Of a stretch of DNA of 61,298 nucleotides, positions 47,298-60,407 are shown piece after piece (position 1 is the first letter of the stretch; every line of letters starts with the position of its first letter). A model generated the notes under the pieces. That model worked only from the letters and a program-made list of their open reading frames with translations. It was not told where the DNA came from and made no database searches. This stretch comes from Planctomycetota bacterium (GTDB taxonomy: Bacteria > Planctomycetota > Planctomycetia > Planctomycetales > Planctomycetaceae), in NCBI GenBank assembly GCA_003388505.1, contig QQVO01000040.1, positions 1 to 61,298 of the forward strand, in the 5' to 3' direction. The position numbers and the translations under genes were made by a program.

Positions 47298-47495
47298 CGC
47301 TTAGAATGTGACCGCTTCAGTAAGAAACTGGAGAATCTGGCTGCTGCCGTGGCAATCCACATCGCGTGCTTCAACTTCTGCCGGCGGTCCCGAGAGAATG
47401 TGGATGGGGGCTACCGGAGAACGGGCGCGTTGCAAGCTGGCATCGTGAATGAGTTGTGGGACATGGATTGTCTGCACGATGAGGTAGTGCACTGA
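47298..47495 (+). pseudogene. Remnant of an IS1-type transposase C-terminus
   Basis: The frame reads RFSKKLENLAAAVAIHIACF then NFCRR, and later LQAGIVNELWDMDCL. This matches the C-terminal region of IS1-family transposases (compare [20 protein letters not shown] and [19 protein letters not shown] in the intact transposase at 56811). Everything upstream of this segment is missing and the region after NFCR is degraded. It marks an old insertion next to the toxin-antitoxin-like pair. Confidence 0.65.
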
Positions 47496-49267: not shown

Positions 49268-52876
<3,609 letters not shown>

Positions 52877-54463: not shown

Positions 54464-55615
54464 ATGTTCGACCCGGATACGCTTCCTGTTCTGCGCCAAG
54501 CCATCCGTGAGCGGACAGAGGCCGACCGCAGGCTGCTTGACGAGTTGCGGGACGAAGTGCGTCCTCTCGCATCGAACGTCGGAACGATCAAGCCACGAGG
54601 GACCACCTCGGTCTCGCTTGTCGCCAGCGACGGCGGAAACAACAAGCTCGTCTTCGATCCCTTCACCGTCCAACTGGTTCGAGTTGTCGATTCTTACGGC
54701 AAGGAACTCTTCTTCGATGCCATTTCTCCGACCACCGATACAGACAAGCTGAGTGAGGTGCAATTCAAGAGCGATGGTTCTCCCAGGACCGCTCTCGGGC
54801 GAATGATGGCCGACCTCGGTGTAACGACGCTGACGCAACTCAGCCACATGATCCCTGACGGAGAGAAGACACGAAAGGAGCCGCACGCCGTTTCACCATC
54901 ATGGGTGCTCGTTTACCGAGACCTCTGTGAGTGGGCAGTCCTTTACGACCGAATCTGTTACCACCAGTTCGCCACAGACACGCTGATCGTGCGGGATGGG
55001 TTCCTACGAAGCAAATTGTTCAGGGGCGAGCTTTTTGTCGAATTTCGGCGGCGACTGGAGCGAGCTATTGAACGGATTCGGGAGGAAGATCGTCGCTGGG
55101 TCTATCTGGTCGGAATTGCCAAGCACAGTAAAGTGCTCACTCGTTACCAACTCGCTATGGCGATTGAGAGGGTTATGCCGCCCGGTGAGGCTCGCTATGT
55201 CCGAGTTCCCCGTGAGCTTGAAGCGAAGGCTTACGTTTGGCCGGAGTATGCTCGTGGTGCCGAGACGGAAGGCGAGGGAGGTGAGGCTCCGAAATACGTC
55301 GCTGGCGACATGTACTTCGTGCGGTTCGGAAAGTCCAAAGGTGATCCAGTATGGGCGGTAGACCTGTTCAGCGCCCAATCGAGCAAAGATGCTGAAATCT
55401 TTGGTTATCTGCTGGCTGACGCCATCGACGGATTCCCCGTCCCGTTCTACCCAAGATGCTTGCAGAAGGCTCACGAGCACGCACAAATCGTCGATTTCGA
55501 CCTGACCATCCTTCAAGATGAAGTTTTCGCAGCCGTCCGTGGTCTCGTACCAGACGAAGGAGTGCTTGACGAGTTTCAACTGAACGTCGATTCGGCGGCG
55601 AGGAGATACGAATGA
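54464..55615 (+). CDS. nurA: NurA-domain nuclease
   Basis: The 383-residue protein carries the NurA signature. A metal-binding Asp lies in LVASDGGNNKLVFDPFTVQL (Asp56), and a second acidic region in WVLVYRDLCEWAVLYDRI. A long helical segment (FRRRLERAIERIREEDRRW), the VYLVGIAKHSKVLTRY motif and a late DLTILQDEVFA follow. NurA is a 5'-3' exonuclease/endonuclease that works with the HerA translocase on DNA ends. The gene starts two bases after the methyltransferase stop and overlaps herA by four bases, so the three proteins are probably made together. Confidence 0.85.
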   Translation: MFDPDTLPVLRQAIRERTEADRRLLDELRDEVRPLASNVGTIKPRGTTSVSLVASDGGNNKLVFDPFTVQLVRVVDSYGKELFFDAISPTTDTDKLSEVQFKSDGSPRTALGRMMADLGVTTLTQLSHMIPDGEKTRKEPHAVSPSWVLVYRDLCEWAVLYDRICYHQFATDTLIVRDGFLRSKLFRGELFVEFRRRLERAIERIREEDRRWVYLVGIAKHSKVLTRYQLAMAIERVMPPGEARYVRVPRELEAKAYVWPEYARGAETEGEGGEAPKYVAGDMYFVRFGKSKGDPVWAVDLFSAQSSKDAEIFGYLLADAIDGFPVPFYPRCLQKAHEHAQIVDFDLTILQDEVFAAVRGLVPDEGVLDEFQLNVDSAARRYE

Positions 55616-56565
55616 AGTTGTTTCCCCGAGACAAGACGGTTGGAATCTTTCGAGGCTTCAGTGAAGGGGGCTTGGAATTCCATGCCGATCTCGTGCTTCC
55701 CTACCGCAACGAGTTCCAGAGTACGCCGATGCACGGTCAATTCCTGATCGTGCAATTAGAGCACGAAGACGAGGCCGTTCTGGGCCGTATCACATCTATC
55801 TCATCACAGGGGCGACTTGCGTCCACTTCCGGCGAAGATTACGGGATTCGGGCTGTCGCAGATGATCGACCCGTTCCCGAAGACCTTCGTGAGCAGTATC
55901 TCAAGTACCGGGTCAACATTCGGGTACTGGGCGTCCTGCGAATCGTGGCTGGCAAACTTCAATTCGCCGCATCCCACCGTCGTCTACCTCACGTCGGGAG
56001 CAAGGTCGCCTTTCTGAGCGACGAAGTTCTACAAGAGGTATCCGGTCAGAGACTCGACGGAGCGGAGATTGGGTATTTCGCTCTCGGTGAGTTCATCTAC
56101 AGCGGCAACGACAGCCGCCTTCAGCGAGAAGAATGGATGCAGGTCAAATCTCCCGCTGTCGTTGCGAGATTCGATGTCGTCCACCTTGTTTCTCGCCGCA
56201 CCTTTGTCTTCGCCCGAGCCGGGTTTGGAAAATCCAACTTGGTCAAACTACTTTTCAGCAGCTTGTATGAGCAGACTCCAACAGTTGAGAAGAGAGGTGG
56301 CAGACGTGTTCCTGTGGGAACGATCATCTTTGACCCAGACGGTGAATATTTCTGGCCTGACGACAAGAACCGCCCTGGCCTCTGCGACGTACCCCACTTA
56401 GAAGACAAAGTAGTCGTCTTCACAAAGAAGAAAGGCCCCAGTCCTTATTACGACTCCTTCGTGGCAGGTGACATCAAGTTGGATATTCGACGACTGCGGC
56501 CTAGTGACGTGATCTCGATTGCTTTGCCAGCCGAAAAGCAGGACCAGCAAAACGTCGCAAAGCTC
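55612..56565 (+). pseudogene. herA: herA, 5' portion (interrupted by IS element)
   Basis: This fragment encodes 318 residues up to the insertion: the HAS-barrel at the N-terminus (GQFLIVQLEHEDEAVLGRI, in part) and the first part of the RecA-like ATPase. The Walker A motif is FARAGFGKSN (Lys207), followed by IIFDPDGEYFWPD. The IS is inserted exactly after codon 318 and adds a short foreign tail before a stop at 56587-56589. The remainder of the gene is at 59217-60407. HerA is a hexameric DNA translocase that partners NurA. This fragment lacks Walker B, so it should be inactive. Confidence 0.9.
56558..56565 (+). repeat. Target site duplication, left
   Basis: CAAAGCTC directly precedes the left inverted repeat and is repeated exactly at 59209-59216. 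Eight bases fits IS1-family insertion. Confidence 0.95.
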
Positions 56566-56588
56566 GGTAGTGTCCCCATGTTGTGTTG
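56566..56588 (+). repeat. IS terminal inverted repeat, left
   Basis: Perfectly complementary over 23 bases to 59186-59208. It begins GGTAGTG, like the ends of other IS1-family elements. Confidence 0.95.
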
Positions 56589-56593
56589 ATTGT

Positions 56594-56782
56594 TTACTGC
56601 TTCAGATTTCCGTCGAGAGCATCTTGAATCAACCGACCTATCGCTTCAGCATCGCTGCGATTCACTGTCTTGTATGCTGGACCCTCCAAGAGGTGCTCCG
56701 GGGCTTCGTCGTGCTTCTTGAATTGAAACACTTGAACCGTCTCGCCGTCGGGCTGAAGGTACACACGAGCGGAGTATTTCAT
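56594..56782 (-). CDS. Small protein encoded downstream of the transposase
   Basis: ATG 56782 is preferred over one five codons earlier because AAAGGTGAGG lies just before it. The 62-residue product (MKYSARVYLQPDGETVQVFQ, then EHLLEGPAYKTVNRSDAEAI) has a beta-beta-alpha look and no known motif. It starts 28 bases after the transposase stop, so it is probably co-transcribed. A regulatory or transposition-accessory role is possible. It ends five bases inside the left inverted repeat. Confidence 0.6.
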   Translation of the reverse strand: MKYSARVYLQPDGETVQVFQFKKHDEAPEHLLEGPAYKTVNRSDAEAIGRLIQDALDGNLKQ

Positions 56783-56810
56783 CGCCTCACCTTTCATGCA
56801 TCACACGTAG

Positions 56811-57767
56811 TTACGCTGCGACCACCTTCGCCGATTCGGTCAACAGCTTTTCCAGAGACCACGGCTCGTCCGTCAGTCCCGCAGACACGGCGGGAGTCGT
56901 CTTGAGCGTGCTGTGCTTCCGGCACCAATTGTACCACGCATAGAACAGGCCCAACATAGCTTCGTGGTTCTCCCACTTCTTGCTGAAGCCATTCGTCAGT
57001 CGCGTCATGCGCCGGACCTGCATTCGCGTCGTGAGGTTGTGGCGCTCGACATGGCTCGTACAAATGTGGTCCTCGTCCGGTGAACCGCAAACCGCTCGCT
57101 CGTCTACGCCTATTATCCGGGCCGGTGAGTATCGCCGCTGTCCCTGCTGGTCCGGCGAGCCGTATTTCTTGACCAGTTGGGCGTAGTCGCAGTCGAAGCG
57201 CCAGGTCAACGGGATGGCCTGCATGTACGGCCTGAATCCGTCGGTGCTGATCTGCGGTCGACCCGAGACGCAGCGGTACAGCTTCTCGACGAATTCCCAC
57301 GTGTGGTCGGAGTCGCGTTTCCCAAGGTGGAAACAGATCACCATTTTCGAGTCGCGGTCGATGGCTGTGAACGTGTAGGCGTCTCCCGCGTCCGCAGCGC
57401 CGCCCTGAAAGAACGCCGTCTTTTCTTTCATGCCGACGAATCCCCACTGCTCGTCGATTTGAATGTCGCCGAACGGGTGATTATCGATGGCGTCGGCCAT
57501 GAATTGGCAGCACTGCCGCCCGGCCGTCTCGACGATCCGCTGTACGGTGTCTTTGTCGAGATTCGTGATTCGGGCCGTGGCGCGGATGCTCATGCCCTCC
57601 AGCAATAGCCGGAGCGCCATGACAGCCGATTCCAGATCGGTCGCCAGTCCGGGGAGGGGTTTCGGTTCGGAGAACGTCTTGCGGCATTCACGGCAGCGGT
57701 AGCGCTGCTGGCCGTCTCGGGTCTTGCCGAACTTACTGGCTTGCTCTCGGCATGATGGGCATTGCAT
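56811..57767 (-). CDS. IS1-family transposase
   Basis: The 318-residue protein has an N-terminal zinc finger ([20 protein letters not shown], then CREC) and a helix-turn-helix ([20 protein letters not shown]). A DDE catalytic domain follows with Asp105 ([11 protein letters not shown]), Asp176 (ISTDGFRPY) and Glu241 ([15 protein letters not shown]). The ending [20 protein letters not shown] and [19 protein letters not shown] is typical of the single-frame IS1 relatives. It is complete, so the element could move itself. The ATG at 57767 follows a 430-base leader full of hairpins. Confidence 0.92.
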
Positions 57768-57889
57768 CAGGGTTCGCCTTCACTTCTGCGACGAACCGGG
57801 TACAATGCGAGTTGCTAGGCTGCATTTGGGTTCGCCTGAATGTGGTTGCCCGGAGTCGCACCAACGACTCCGGGTCTTTGGTGAAATCG

Positions 57890-57981
57890 CGGTGGGCAGG
57901 GGTTTCGATCCCACTGACACCAATCAGCCCCTCCGCCAGCTTATAAGGCTGGTGCGCCGACCAAGACGCGGGCTGCCCACC
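57890..57981 (-). tRNA. Candidate class II tRNA with 9/3 acceptor/T-stem (anticodon UAU)
   Basis: On the minus strand GGTGGGCAG (57981-57973) pairs perfectly with CTGCCCACC (57899-57891), a 9-bp acceptor stem. GGG-ATCGAAA-CCC is a 3-bp T stem with a 7-base loop. CCAGC-CTTATAA-GCTGG is a perfect anticodon arm with anticodon UAU. The D loop contains TTGGT. The variable arm has a GCTGA/TCAGT stem. The base after the acceptor is G. A 9+3 arrangement keeps the 12-bp branch and is the geometry of allo-tRNAs, many of which are serine-type. The CCA end is not encoded. T54 is replaced by A, so function needs testing. Confidence 0.6.
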
Positions 57982-57994
57982 ACGGACACAAGCG

Positions 57995-58071
57995 AGACAG
58001 GGACCGGAGTCGAACCGGTTTTCCGAGGGTTGCAAGCCACGCTGAGGACCGTCCTCCCCCCTGTCCCTGTC
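57995..58071 (-). tRNA. tRNA-like structure with continuous 12-bp acceptor/T branch
   Basis: GACAGGGAC (58071-58063) pairs perfectly with GTCCCTGTC (58004-57996). The adjacent T arm CGG-TTCGACT-CCG has a canonical T loop. The pairing can be read as 7/5, 8/4 or 9/3. The D region is a GAGG-ACGGT-CCTC hairpin. The loop CTTGCAA suggests anticodon UGC or, shifted, GCA, but the anticodon stem has mismatches. Discriminator base is U. It may be a degenerate or non-translational tRNA-like RNA. Confidence 0.45.
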
Positions 58072-58347
58072 GCCTTGCCCCCGGCGGTCCGCTGGCCGCC
58101 AAAACCTGCTACCGCCGGGGACTCGTGCTTCTGCGGCCCCGCCGAACGGCGACTCGCAATCAACGGGGCCTGCTACTCTTCTGGTCATGCGACACCTCCC
58201 TTCGTGATCTCACCATCATATCCGTTCAAGCTGACTATTCAAGTCCATTCAACCTGCAACCTGAATAAATTGTCGACTTTGGTTCAGCTAAATGGTTGAC
58301 TTGTGGGTGAGCAGGAGTCAGAATGATTGTCAGAAAGGAGGCCGAAC

Positions 58348-59124
58348 ATGGCCAAGCACCGTAGCCCGATACATCCCAACCTGACAGTCGAAGATGCCGT
58401 AAAGTCGGTTGAGGTGATCTACAAGCACGAGCGACGCAACCCGGTCCCCGTCGAGGTGATCGCGAAGCACTGTGGTTACGACAGCTTCAAGAGCAGTTCT
58501 GCGAAACGCCTGATTTCGACGCTACTGCAGTACGGCTTGGTAGACGATGAGGGGTCTGGCGATGACCGCAAAATGAAGCTGTCTCAGCTTGCGCTAGATA
58601 TTGTGCTTGCTGACGGGAGCGATGATCCGAATCGCAAAGCGGCAGTCCGCAGGAGTGCGCGTTTGCCAGCGGTTCACGCCAAGATTCTGAGTGAATTCCC
58701 CGATCGTCTGCCATCTCCAGCAACGCTGAAGTCGTATCTGATACGTGACCTCGATTTCAACGACTCTCAGGTTGACACGTTCATCAACAAGTTCCGAAAA
58801 ACTGTTGACTTCGCAGATTTGTACGGCGAGAATGACGACGAAGAGGGGGAAGGCGCTAACGGAAATGGGCACGATGACGAGTCCCTCGCGCTGCGTAAAC
58901 CGTCGATCACACTGAATCCGAACGCACCCAAAATGCGTGACCTTCCAATCACCTTGCCGAGCCTCGCCGTTGCAAAGGTGACTATTCCTGAGCGCATGAA
59001 CGATCTGGACTTCTCTGTGTTGATCTCAACGATTAAGGGGTGGAAGGACGCGCTTGTCGAGAAGCCAGGAAGTGACGCGCCGGAAGTCGACCCAGATGAT
59101 GGTGGTGAAGACGAAGACGACTGA
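58348..59124 (+). CDS. IS passenger protein with winged-helix-like N-terminus
   Basis: ATG 58348 follows AAAGGAGG with six bases between, giving 258 residues. The N-terminal 90 residues (LTVEDAVKSVEVIYKHERRN, HCGYDSFKSSSAKRLISTL, QYGLVDDEG) resemble the winged-helix repeats of the DUF5343 group. The central part is helical, and the end is very acidic (VDPDDGGEDEDD). It is not a transposase. It lies on the opposite strand to the transposase and reads out toward the right end of the element. Possible roles are regulator of transposition or of the tRNA-like RNAs, or cargo. Confidence 0.65.
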   Translation: MAKHRSPIHPNLTVEDAVKSVEVIYKHERRNPVPVEVIAKHCGYDSFKSSSAKRLISTLLQYGLVDDEGSGDDRKMKLSQLALDIVLADGSDDPNRKAAVRRSARLPAVHAKILSEFPDRLPSPATLKSYLIRDLDFNDSQVDTFINKFRKTVDFADLYGENDDEEGEGANGNGHDDESLALRKPSITLNPNAPKMRDLPITLPSLAVAKVTIPERMNDLDFSVLISTIKGWKDALVEKPGSDAPEVDPDDGGEDEDD

Positions 59125-59185
59125 CCAACGACCGCTTTCAGTTTCACGCGGCGAACATCACGCCGCGTTTTTCATGCGCCATCAC

Positions 59186-59208
59186 CAACACAACATGGGG
59201 ACACTACC
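59186..59208 (-). repeat. IS terminal inverted repeat, right
   Basis: Perfect inverse of the left end at 56566-56588. Confidence 0.95.
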
Positions 59209-59216
59209 CAAAGCTC
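59209..59216 (+). repeat. Target site duplication, right
   Basis: CAAAGCTC, identical to 56558-56565. Removing the IS and one copy restores the herA frame. Confidence 0.95.
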
Positions 59217-60407
59217 AAAGGCATGAACGATGCTGACTGGCGAACTCTCGTCGATGAAATCTTCACGAATGGAAACGCCACCGACGTACAAACGATCAAT
59301 CACCTCTTACGGCTGAATCCAAATCAGGAAGCGGAAGCGGTAGCAGCCCGCTCAAACATGACACGCATCGTCAGGATGCTGCATGATCCGAGCAGCCAGA
59401 TGATGGACATGCTGATTGCCTCGCTAAAGGAAGGGAAAATCTGTGTCATCGACATTTCGCAGATGCGAGGCACTCCCGCATTGGTGTTGTCCGGCCTTCT
59501 GCTCCAACGAGTGTTTGACCACAATCAGGAGGAGTTCACCAAGGCCACCCCGGAGACGATTCCAACGCTCGCTGTGGTCGAGGAGGCACAATCCGTCTTG
59601 GGCAGCGGAGGAAGCTCGGGCGAAGGGCCGTATGTTGCGTGGGTGAAAGAAGGACGAAAATACGACCTTGGGGCAGTGTTGATTACTCAGCAGCCGGGCA
59701 GCATTTCCCACGAAATTCTGAGCCAAGGAGACAACTGGTTCATCTTCCATCTGCTCTCGGCTGGTGATCTCGTTTCAGTCAAGAAAGCAAACGCACACTT
59801 CAGTGACGACATCCTCAGTACGCTGCTGAACGAGCCGATTCCGGGGCACGGTGTGTTTTGGAGCAGTGCGGGAGGGAAGAGTTATCCCATTCCGCTACGT
59901 GTCCTTTCGTTCGAACAGGCATATTCTGCACGTGACCCACAGTACAACTTGCCTGCTGGCAAGACATTCTCGCAAGAACTGAAGGGGCGATTTCAAGCGG
60001 CAATCTCGGCCAGTCGTACAAAACCGCCATCGACACCAGAGGCAAAGCCAGAATCTCAAACTGGTGGTCTCTTCCCGGCGGAAGCTGGCTCTGACACGGA
60101 CGATGACTCAACAGCGGACACTCCCGAAGACGTTCTCGCAACGTACTCGAAGGCAGCGATTGAGAAGGTTGCCGGAGATACGCAGTTCATGCAACGGATG
60201 CGAAGCAATGGAATGCCTTGGAAGGGCGTAGTCACTGCCCTAGAAGAAGCGCTTCCTGACGTACTCGACGACCGTAACAACATCGCTTACCAGCTCGTTC
60301 CACAGTTCTTGCAAGACACATTTGGCGAGCAAGACACGGCATGGGAAACCGAGAGGCGTCCACGCAAGAGCGGCAGCGGAACCACGACATGGATTGTCAT
60401 AAAGTGA
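59217..60407 (+). pseudogene. herA: herA, 3' portion (separated by the IS element)
   Basis: In the frame restored by IS removal, the sequence continues K-G-M-N-D-A-D-W from 59217 to the stop at 60405-60407. It includes the Walker B region (PTLAVVEEAQSVLGSG), a glutamine/arginine sensor segment (GAVLITQQPGSISHEILSQG) and the HerA-type FHLLSAGDLVSVKKANAHF. The joined protein has 714 residues, a normal HerA size with a C-terminal extension after about residue 590. An ATG at 59223 could give a separate fragment, but without Walker A it could not hydrolyse ATP. Confidence 0.9.

Follow-up and report, generated by a model that had tools for sequence, protein, structure and literature searches.

An allo-tRNA-like RNA with a UAU anticodon in an IS1-family element, and AUA codons gathered ahead of the catalytic glutamate of the element's transposase

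The window, meaning the whole stretch of 61,298 nucleotides that was analysed, belongs to a Planctomycetota contig (QQVO01000040.1) and contains a host gene interrupted by an insertion sequence (IS). The following features were located; loci used for comparison are given as L numbers.

55612..60407, plus strand: host HerA/DUF87-type gene, interrupted by the IS; its flanks joined at the target-site duplication form one open frame of 714 residues
56558..56565, second copy 59209-59216: target-site duplication CAAAGCTC, 8 bp
56566..56588: IS end (terminal inverted repeat, TIR), 23 bp, begins GGTAGTG, perfect inverted copy of 59186-59208
56811..57767, minus strand: IS1-family DDE transposase, 318 aa (NCBIfam NF033558, Pfam PF03400, alignment, AlphaFold/Foldseek)
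57051..57167, minus strand: AUA-rich stretch, transposase codons 201-239, just before catalytic E241 (codon counts)
57111..57116, minus strand: two AUA codons, 218-219, the sole AUA in the window transposase (codon counts)
57849..57874, minus strand: strong hairpin in the transposase leader, CCCGGAGUCG...CGACUCCGGG (z -3.19, 0/200 shuffles)
57890..57981, minus strand: UAU RNA, a five-stem 9/3 tRNA-like RNA with G73, 92 nt (fold and homologue comparison)
57994..58071, minus strand: second tRNA-like RNA, 7/5, short D arm, loop CUUGCAA, anticodon UGC by eye (ARAGORN 'tRNA-???')
58072..58190, minus strand: structured leader upstream of both RNAs (fold z -3.85), partly shared with L068 by alignment
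58327..59124, plus strand: cargo gene, 265 aa, no match in Pfam, PADLOC or NCBIfam
59186..59208: other IS end (TIR), perfect inverted copy of 56566-56588

The element carrying the UAU RNA measures 2,643 bp, and its perfect 23-bp ends and 8-bp target duplication agree with the IS1 pattern of terminal inverted repeats and a target duplication of 8-9 bp. Both TIRs and both copies of the duplication enclose the UAU RNA, so the location inside an insertion sequence that the first-pass annotation had proposed was borne out. One copy of the element was found in its own genome. The UAU RNA is placed between the transposase and the divergent cargo gene, 122 nt upstream of the transposase start.

The transposase scored 101 bits against NCBIfam NF033558 (cut-off 100), as expected of an IS1-type enzyme, and the L070 (clade-2) and L206 transposases fell under that cut-off at 59.6 and 70 bits. 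Residues D105, D176 and E241 were invariant in a 10-row transposase alignment. The AlphaFold model (pLDDT 84.7) matched the ISCth4 transposase, other DDE transposases and retroviral integrases in Foldseek; in this model W218-227 form a strand and W235 lies just ahead of the helix holding E241. Elsewhere in the window, the C-terminus of the transposase had a further weak match at positions 47316-47483 (34 % over ~56 residues, E 1e-4), perhaps an IS remnant.

Read from its 5′ end at 57981 to its 3′ end at 57890, the UAU RNA has an acceptor stem with nine of nine pairs followed directly by a G (G73), a T stem of 3 bp with a loop of seven bases, a 5-bp anticodon stem with the loop CUUAUAA and anticodon UAU, GG in the D loop and a paired variable arm. 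These were the features claimed at first pass, and all of them were confirmed on the minus strand. The 9 + 3 pairs give the 12-bp acceptor/T branch (8/4 or 9/3) of allo-tRNAs, the anticodon is a non-serine one, and the long variable arm, whose five pairs covary, accompanies G73. The latter base was present in 16/16 tabulated UAU-tRNA members, two alanine-like ones aside. By G73 and the long variable arm the UAU RNA appears serine-like.

Standard searches detected this RNA in part. The Rfam tRNA-Sec model spanned its entire length at 34.9 bits (E 3.5e-5, 631 bases searched), short of the gathering score of 47 bits, and no gathering-score match was found in an Rfam scan of the whole window. ARAGORN did not call the UAU RNA, its sole call being the neighbour at 57994-58071, and the single-sequence fold was modest (z -2.39, with 2/200 shuffles equally stable). 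The neighbouring RNA scored 23.3 bits (E 0.037) against the Rfam tRNA-Sec model. An RNA of this kind, its D arm short (GAGGACGGUCCUC), stands before the UAU RNA in the window and, at the same place, in L068, and the transposases of these two elements are ~39 % identical.

To identify relatives, a covariance model built from four sequences was searched against 170 genomes of the same family. A clear group of UAU RNAs emerged at 23 places in 19/170 genomes, with scores of at least 43.9 bits, and homologues were also present in viral contigs. The matches below 43.9 bits that were inspected were ordinary class II tRNAs or tRNA-Sec-like RNAs, and the raw tally of 106 genomes with model matches includes ordinary tRNAs. 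The anticodon was UAU in 22/23 members and UAA in one (L082). By eye, U33, UAU and a purine at 37 were kept in 22/23 while position 38 varied, as decoding would demand. The exceptional L082 RNA (L082:3038-3127) had no transposase found beside it, and its cargo resembles the window cargo by eye.

In an alignment of 22 homologues, itself fitted to the covariance model, 94.2 % of cells paired and 23/30 pairs had changed on both sides, a level reached by 0/500 shuffles; sliding the structure by 1-3 columns reduced pairing to 40.5-55.7 %. Covariation spanned all six helices. RNAalifold, applied to a MAFFT alignment of 21 homologues not fitted to the assumed structure, recovered the acceptor, T and D stems, four pairs of the anticodon stem and an additional CCC:GGG helix, and did not draw the variable arm. 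This fifth helix was present in most members, with CG replaced by UA in three rows and by GC in one, and the anticodon-stem pair closest to the loop was unpaired in 14/22. The RNA proposed in the first-pass annotation was thus found again in related insertion sequences with compensatory change, its 9/3 stems kept and co-varying. We regard these comparative data as strong evidence for the predicted fold, which is best described as a five-stem junction plus acceptor rather than a plain cloverleaf.

An IS1-type transposase was located near the RNA in 14/23 family members, with remnants only in L083, L085, L078 and L072; of the other members two stop at a contig edge and seven were without a transposase found. 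Several of these seven have GGTAGTG ends ahead of the cargo. Five loci (L069, L075, L077, L081 and L084) showed a GGTAGTG-type left end, cargo and RNA with no transposase found, the contig ending in L075 and L077, and these are read as truncated or non-autonomous forms. Complete ends with a perfect 8-bp duplication surrounded the RNA in seven first-set elements, and also in L066 (weaker ends) and L137. In a phylum search that scored only 10 candidates per genome, so that absence elsewhere is weak evidence, model R2 matched 3/392 genomes and a motif 2/392, all from the window's own family, which by count supplied 27 of the 392. A contig search of genomes found one relative, without the RNA.

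To examine codon use in the transposases, a stretch of 39 codons matching window residues 201-239, between the invariant D176 and E241, was chosen on the first set. Among the 12 UAU-tRNA elements of that set, AUA accounted for 21/449 codons inside the stretch vs 5/3,231 elsewhere in the transposase. It was the most enriched of all codons there (p 1.6e-15; the next was CCG, 1e-4), and UUA, AGA, AGG and CUA were not enriched. Seven transposases without a UAU tRNA and taken as AUA-free (L011, L012, L013, L014, L016, L021 and L033) held no AUA in 2,070 codons, and the neighbouring DNA polymerase gene (49268-52876) used AUA for 0/62 isoleucine codons. Five AUA-bearing elements without a model match were inspected. 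In L017 and L097 a differently built UAU tRNA was present (7/5, G3:U70, A73), and L094, L095 and L096, whose elements are close to that of the window, gave no UAU tRNA even with the model filters off.

Pooled over all sets, 18/18 elements with an upstream UAU tRNA had AUA in the stretch vs 19/115 without one found (Fisher p 2e-12). L017 and L097 had been checked for a tRNA because AUA was present; with the three tRNAs identified by eye (L017, L097 and L216) left out or counted as lacking, the comparison was 15/15 vs 22/118 (p 4e-10). AUA made up 32/674 codons inside the stretch vs 10/4,939 outside in the 18 elements (p 8e-22), and 29/4,452 vs 111/29,120 in the 115 others (p 0.012). As a synonymous choice in the 18, it supplied 32/52 isoleucine codons inside the stretch vs 10/229 outside. 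The UAU tRNA was on the transposase strand, 122-600 nt upstream, in 18/18, and several builds occupied this same post: the five-stem 9/3 form with G73, the alanine-like 7/5 form with G3:U70 and A73 (L097, L017), a 7/5 class II form with G73 (L206, whose transposase has 34 % GC) and a 7/5 form with a long variable arm and G73 (L216). A statistical link between the AUA stretch and the UAU tRNA through codon and anticodon is, on these counts, probable. The first-pass annotation had proposed AUA codons, rare in a GC-rich genome, as the target; this is refined here, in that the AUA codons of consequence probably lie in the transposase that the element itself encodes, beside the catalytic Glu. That annotation had missed these codons, as well as the fifth helix and the adjoining second tRNA-like RNA.

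The pattern was repeated in loci found later. The second set comprised 80 transposase loci from viral contigs, scanned regardless of AUA. Model R2 gave three strong matches (L134, L137 and L157), each ~400 nt upstream of the transposase, and ARAGORN found an upstream tRNA at 7/80 loci, one of them UAU (L206, with a canonical class II body and G73). All four UAU elements of this set had AUA in the stretch (9/153 codons vs 4/1,085 outside, p 2.5e-6), as had 10/70 others. A third set of 37 new transposases, after 50/87 loci were dropped as duplicates, added L216 and L217, both with AUA in the stretch, as had 6/35 others. Together the six later-found UAU elements had AUA at 11/225 codons inside vs 5/1,708 outside (p 1e-7). 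Dropped before counting were L068 (a 99 % copy of L076), identical proteins, and L018 and L020 (the same loci as L073 and L065); L221, a 129-codon fragment, was left out of the tree only.

On a tree computed with the stretch excluded, the UAU tRNAs required at least five changes on starred branches. A tree-paired test had only six independent starred pairs, in which AUA agreed in 2.4 on average and disagreed in none, and was not significant, so part of the pooled signal reflects shared descent. Descent alone would be hard to reconcile with a synonymous choice of AUA at 30-55 % protein identity and with L206, whose nearest rows are AUA-free in the stretch.

Other anticodons were observed at the same place in IS1-type elements. 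Three viral-contig loci (L141:4784-4871, L173:4615-4686 and L292:3276-3358) have a tRNA upstream of the transposase with an anticodon read as UUA (ochre). No in-frame UAA was found in these three transposases, and a UAA in the L141 upstream frame, considered as a recoded codon, appears to be a normal stop codon separating two genes. L147:4793-4869, L189:4753-4826, L192:4627-4699, L198:4775-4849 and L264 have tRNAs with ACU, GCU, CAC, AGU and UGC anticodons. Some tRNA bodies mismatch the anticodon, and that of L198 looks like tRNA-Glu by eye. No cognate codons for the UUA, ACU and CAC tRNAs were found in the stretch. For the AGU tRNA, codon ACU was 2/41 inside and 4/248 outside, and cognate codons of the GCU tRNA were 5/38 inside and 3/237 outside, at positions where Ser is conserved anyway; neither shows a clear link. 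For the window UGC RNA, GCA occurred 0 times in the stretch and once outside, and the codon for a CGC tRNA in L017 occurred 0 times inside and 13 outside. Element-borne altered tRNAs may therefore extend more widely than UAU.

Two explanations at the DNA level were rejected. A -10 promoter box within the anticodon loop was set aside as the final base of TATAAT varies among the 23 members by eye, and an internal promoter or fixed DNA motif behind AUA was set aside as the AUA sites are spread over nine columns whose flanks are unlike one another. ATA in a second frame was also somewhat enriched in the stretch (7/449 vs 3/3,231), which we attribute to the CGA-TAC codons of a conserved RY motif.

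The residues of relatives at the AUA sites were used to consider what reading these codons would do. Across 32 sites, weighted other rows had Ser or Ala in 4 % vs a stretch background of 17 %, and I, L, V, M or F in 49 % vs 15 %. W235, six residues before E241, was I or V in 119/121 other rows. The commonest AUA site, W218 (9/32), was Cys in 75/121 other rows, and a small residue might be tolerated there; Cys and Thr were common at W218/W219 in relatives, and W229 was mostly polar. Functional recoding in which serine is required at AUA is not favoured by the 4 % vs 17 % figure, yet Cys and Thr are common at W218/W219. The first-pass proposal of an IS-borne allo-tRNA for serine at AUA is supported in part, namely in its geometry, its serine-type features (G73, long variable arm) and an anticodon that would be expected to read AUA. 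Where a tRNA-Ile(TAT) is present it reads AUA, and otherwise a lysidine tRNA made by TilS does so, according to the portion of PMC6582537 on this point. TilS was present in the window's own genome. By identity rules that we take to apply here, the UAU tRNAs look serine- or alanine-like and none looks isoleucine-like.

These observations can be combined in a model in which the UAU RNA is an element-encoded missense tRNA that acts on its own transposase and throttles it, a proposal whose chances we regard as evenly balanced. The RNA would be excised from the transcript and gain CCA, and would be charged with serine, as its G73, long variable arm and nine-base-pair acceptor suggest. It would then compete with the host lysidine tRNA-Ile at the AUA codons of the stretch. 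Host reading would insert Ile and give active transposase; reading by the element tRNA would insert Ser (Ala for the alanine-like builds) at sites where relatives seldom have either residue, and the product would be inactive or weakened and possibly dominant-negative. As the tRNA is free to diffuse, missense would rise and transposition fall as the element multiplies, which amounts to a copy-number brake. The serine- or alanine-like and never isoleucine-like tRNAs, together with host TilS, point to this model, and we lean towards a brake rather than a helper as the direction of effect. Counting against the model are the reported failure of UAU members in E. coli translation (Mukai et al. via PMC7609411), the non-significant paired test, the 19/115 elements with AUA where no UAU tRNA was found, the tRNAs of other anticodons with no clear codon link, the frequent Cys at W218 and the loop-proximal anticodon-stem pair that is open in 14/22; the first of these also weighs against the first-pass proposal of serine insertion. 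A fuller version is more tentative, falling a little short of an even chance: a private missense tRNA is paired with AUA bunched at the catalytic core, the share of enzyme that is active depends on the dose of the tRNA and, through it, on copy number, and lineages fill the post with differently built tRNAs, serine- or alanine-like, that share only the anticodon.

The opposite direction, a gate at which the element tRNA is needed to pass AUA and transposase is made only when that tRNA is made and charged, as with bldA, would fit the association of AUA with UAU equally well, and both the absence of AUA from the polymerase gene nearby and the small residues of relatives at W218/W219, where Ser or Ala might be accepted, agree with it. 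We consider a gate unlikely, since with host TilS present AUA should be readable without the element tRNA, AUA also falls at the almost invariably I or V position W235, and full-length AUA-bearing transposases without a UAU tRNA found exist (L094-L096).

A role for the UAU RNA within the transposase transcript, as a structured element for regulation or processing that RNase P/Z cuts or a regulator binds, with AUA arising by descent or another cause, is also rather improbable. The constant position and orientation of the RNA ahead of the transposase, an extra helix unlike a working tRNA and the non-significant paired test would suit such a role, as would the report that UAU members could not serve translation in E. 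coli (Mukai et al. via the allo-tRNA-UAU passages of the review PMC7609411). The anticodon and U33 are nevertheless kept, which cleavage by RNase P/Z would not call for, tRNAs of different build but identical anticodon take the place of this RNA, and AUA is singled out among all codons in a pattern that recurs in later sets.

The cargo offers a further possible partner. In family elements a variable gene adjoins the RNA, oriented towards or away from it, and many of the scanned neighbours (elements L065-L085) resemble defence or toxin genes. Matches in Pfam or PADLOC were to AIPR/AbiU (L070, L076), SLFN-like (L067), HTH-M78 (L066), GmrSD (L075), HipA-like (L065), AAA with a weak AriB-like TOPRIM (L069), HEPN (L084), AAA-DUF4143 (L078), trypsin-like (L079), methyltransferase with a HicB-domain protein (L072) and ParA (L081). 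Neither database returned anything for the window cargo, L068, L071, L073, L074 or L082, and L064 had a sub-cut-off Pfam match only. A short convergent ORF, RHH-like by eye and with weak family matches, has its stop abutting the RNA 3′ end in several elements (e.g. L067:2771-2953). The RNA could serve such cargo as a decoy, antitoxin or substrate of tRNA-cutting effectors; the abundance of defence- and toxin-like neighbours would speak for this, and a transposable-element or toxin-antitoxin role is suggested for allo-tRNA-UAU in the review's passages on the group (PMC7609411). We nonetheless judge it very unlikely, as one conserved RNA faces very different cargo, 6 of 20 Pfam-scanned neighbours had no Pfam or PADLOC match (the weak L064 match aside) and AUA codons in the cargo were not bunched. 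A hitch-hiking tRNA relic without function, to which the damaged members L083, L085 and L099 might point, is highly improbable, as compensatory changes in all helices and an anticodon kept in 22/23 indicate selection.

If the brake model is correct, a mobile element uses a tRNA of its own for self-regulation through programmed mistranslation, of which no earlier description was found in a literature search with the original allo-tRNA paper outside its scope. That search, of titles and the starts of abstracts, returned nothing on transposon-encoded tRNAs, AUA or rare codons in transposases, IS1 passenger and tRNA genes, or mistranslation of transposase. The model would also provide natural element-borne non-cognate AUA tRNAs and a simple genetic test of a sense-codon missense tRNA in nature.

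As far as the relevant passages of the review describe it, the UAU RNA is a member of the published, functionally unexplained allo-tRNA-UAU group (PMC7609411). Common to both are the 12-bp acceptor branch, the long variable arm, UAU and a possible five-stem junction, as well as an overlap with a transposon-related ORF, reported by Mukai et al. 2017 for an allo-tRNA-UAU pseudogene in Edaphobacter C40, and polycistrons with other irregular tRNAs (PMC7609411). The same passages name the group as the most abundant of allo-tRNAs in soil and sediment metagenomes and place its relatives in Acidobacteria; the 9/3 allo-tRNAs reviewed there had Arg, Leu or ochre anticodons, whereas here 9/3 pairs with UAU (PMC7609411). 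New here are the IS1-family ends with target duplications, the fifth-helix covariation, the defence-like cargo and, above all, the transposase AUA stretch, which offers a concrete and testable target for a group that those passages credit with no known job (PMC7609411).

The UAU RNA resembles tRNA-Sec (RF01852) in its long acceptor, six-pair-like D arm, long variable arm and weak model match, and differs in its score below gathering, its 3-bp T stem, its extra helix and its anticodon UAU rather than UCA. The anticodon of tRNA-Sec is UCA, with some sense-codon exceptions known. In Streptomyces, the rare codon UUA and one dedicated tRNA, bldA, control selected genes. A rare codon and a dedicated tRNA are shared with the present case, in which the cognate codon is likewise concentrated in the gene that would be controlled; bldA is a host tRNA inserting the normal amino acid, whereas the tRNA here is element-borne, aimed at its own transposase and apparently non-cognate in its amino-acid identity. 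In yeast, frameshifting in Ty1 is controlled by the scarce tRNA-Arg(CCU). There, as proposed here, the output of a mobile element depends on how much tRNA is available, although in Ty1 this is achieved by a host tRNA and frameshifting.
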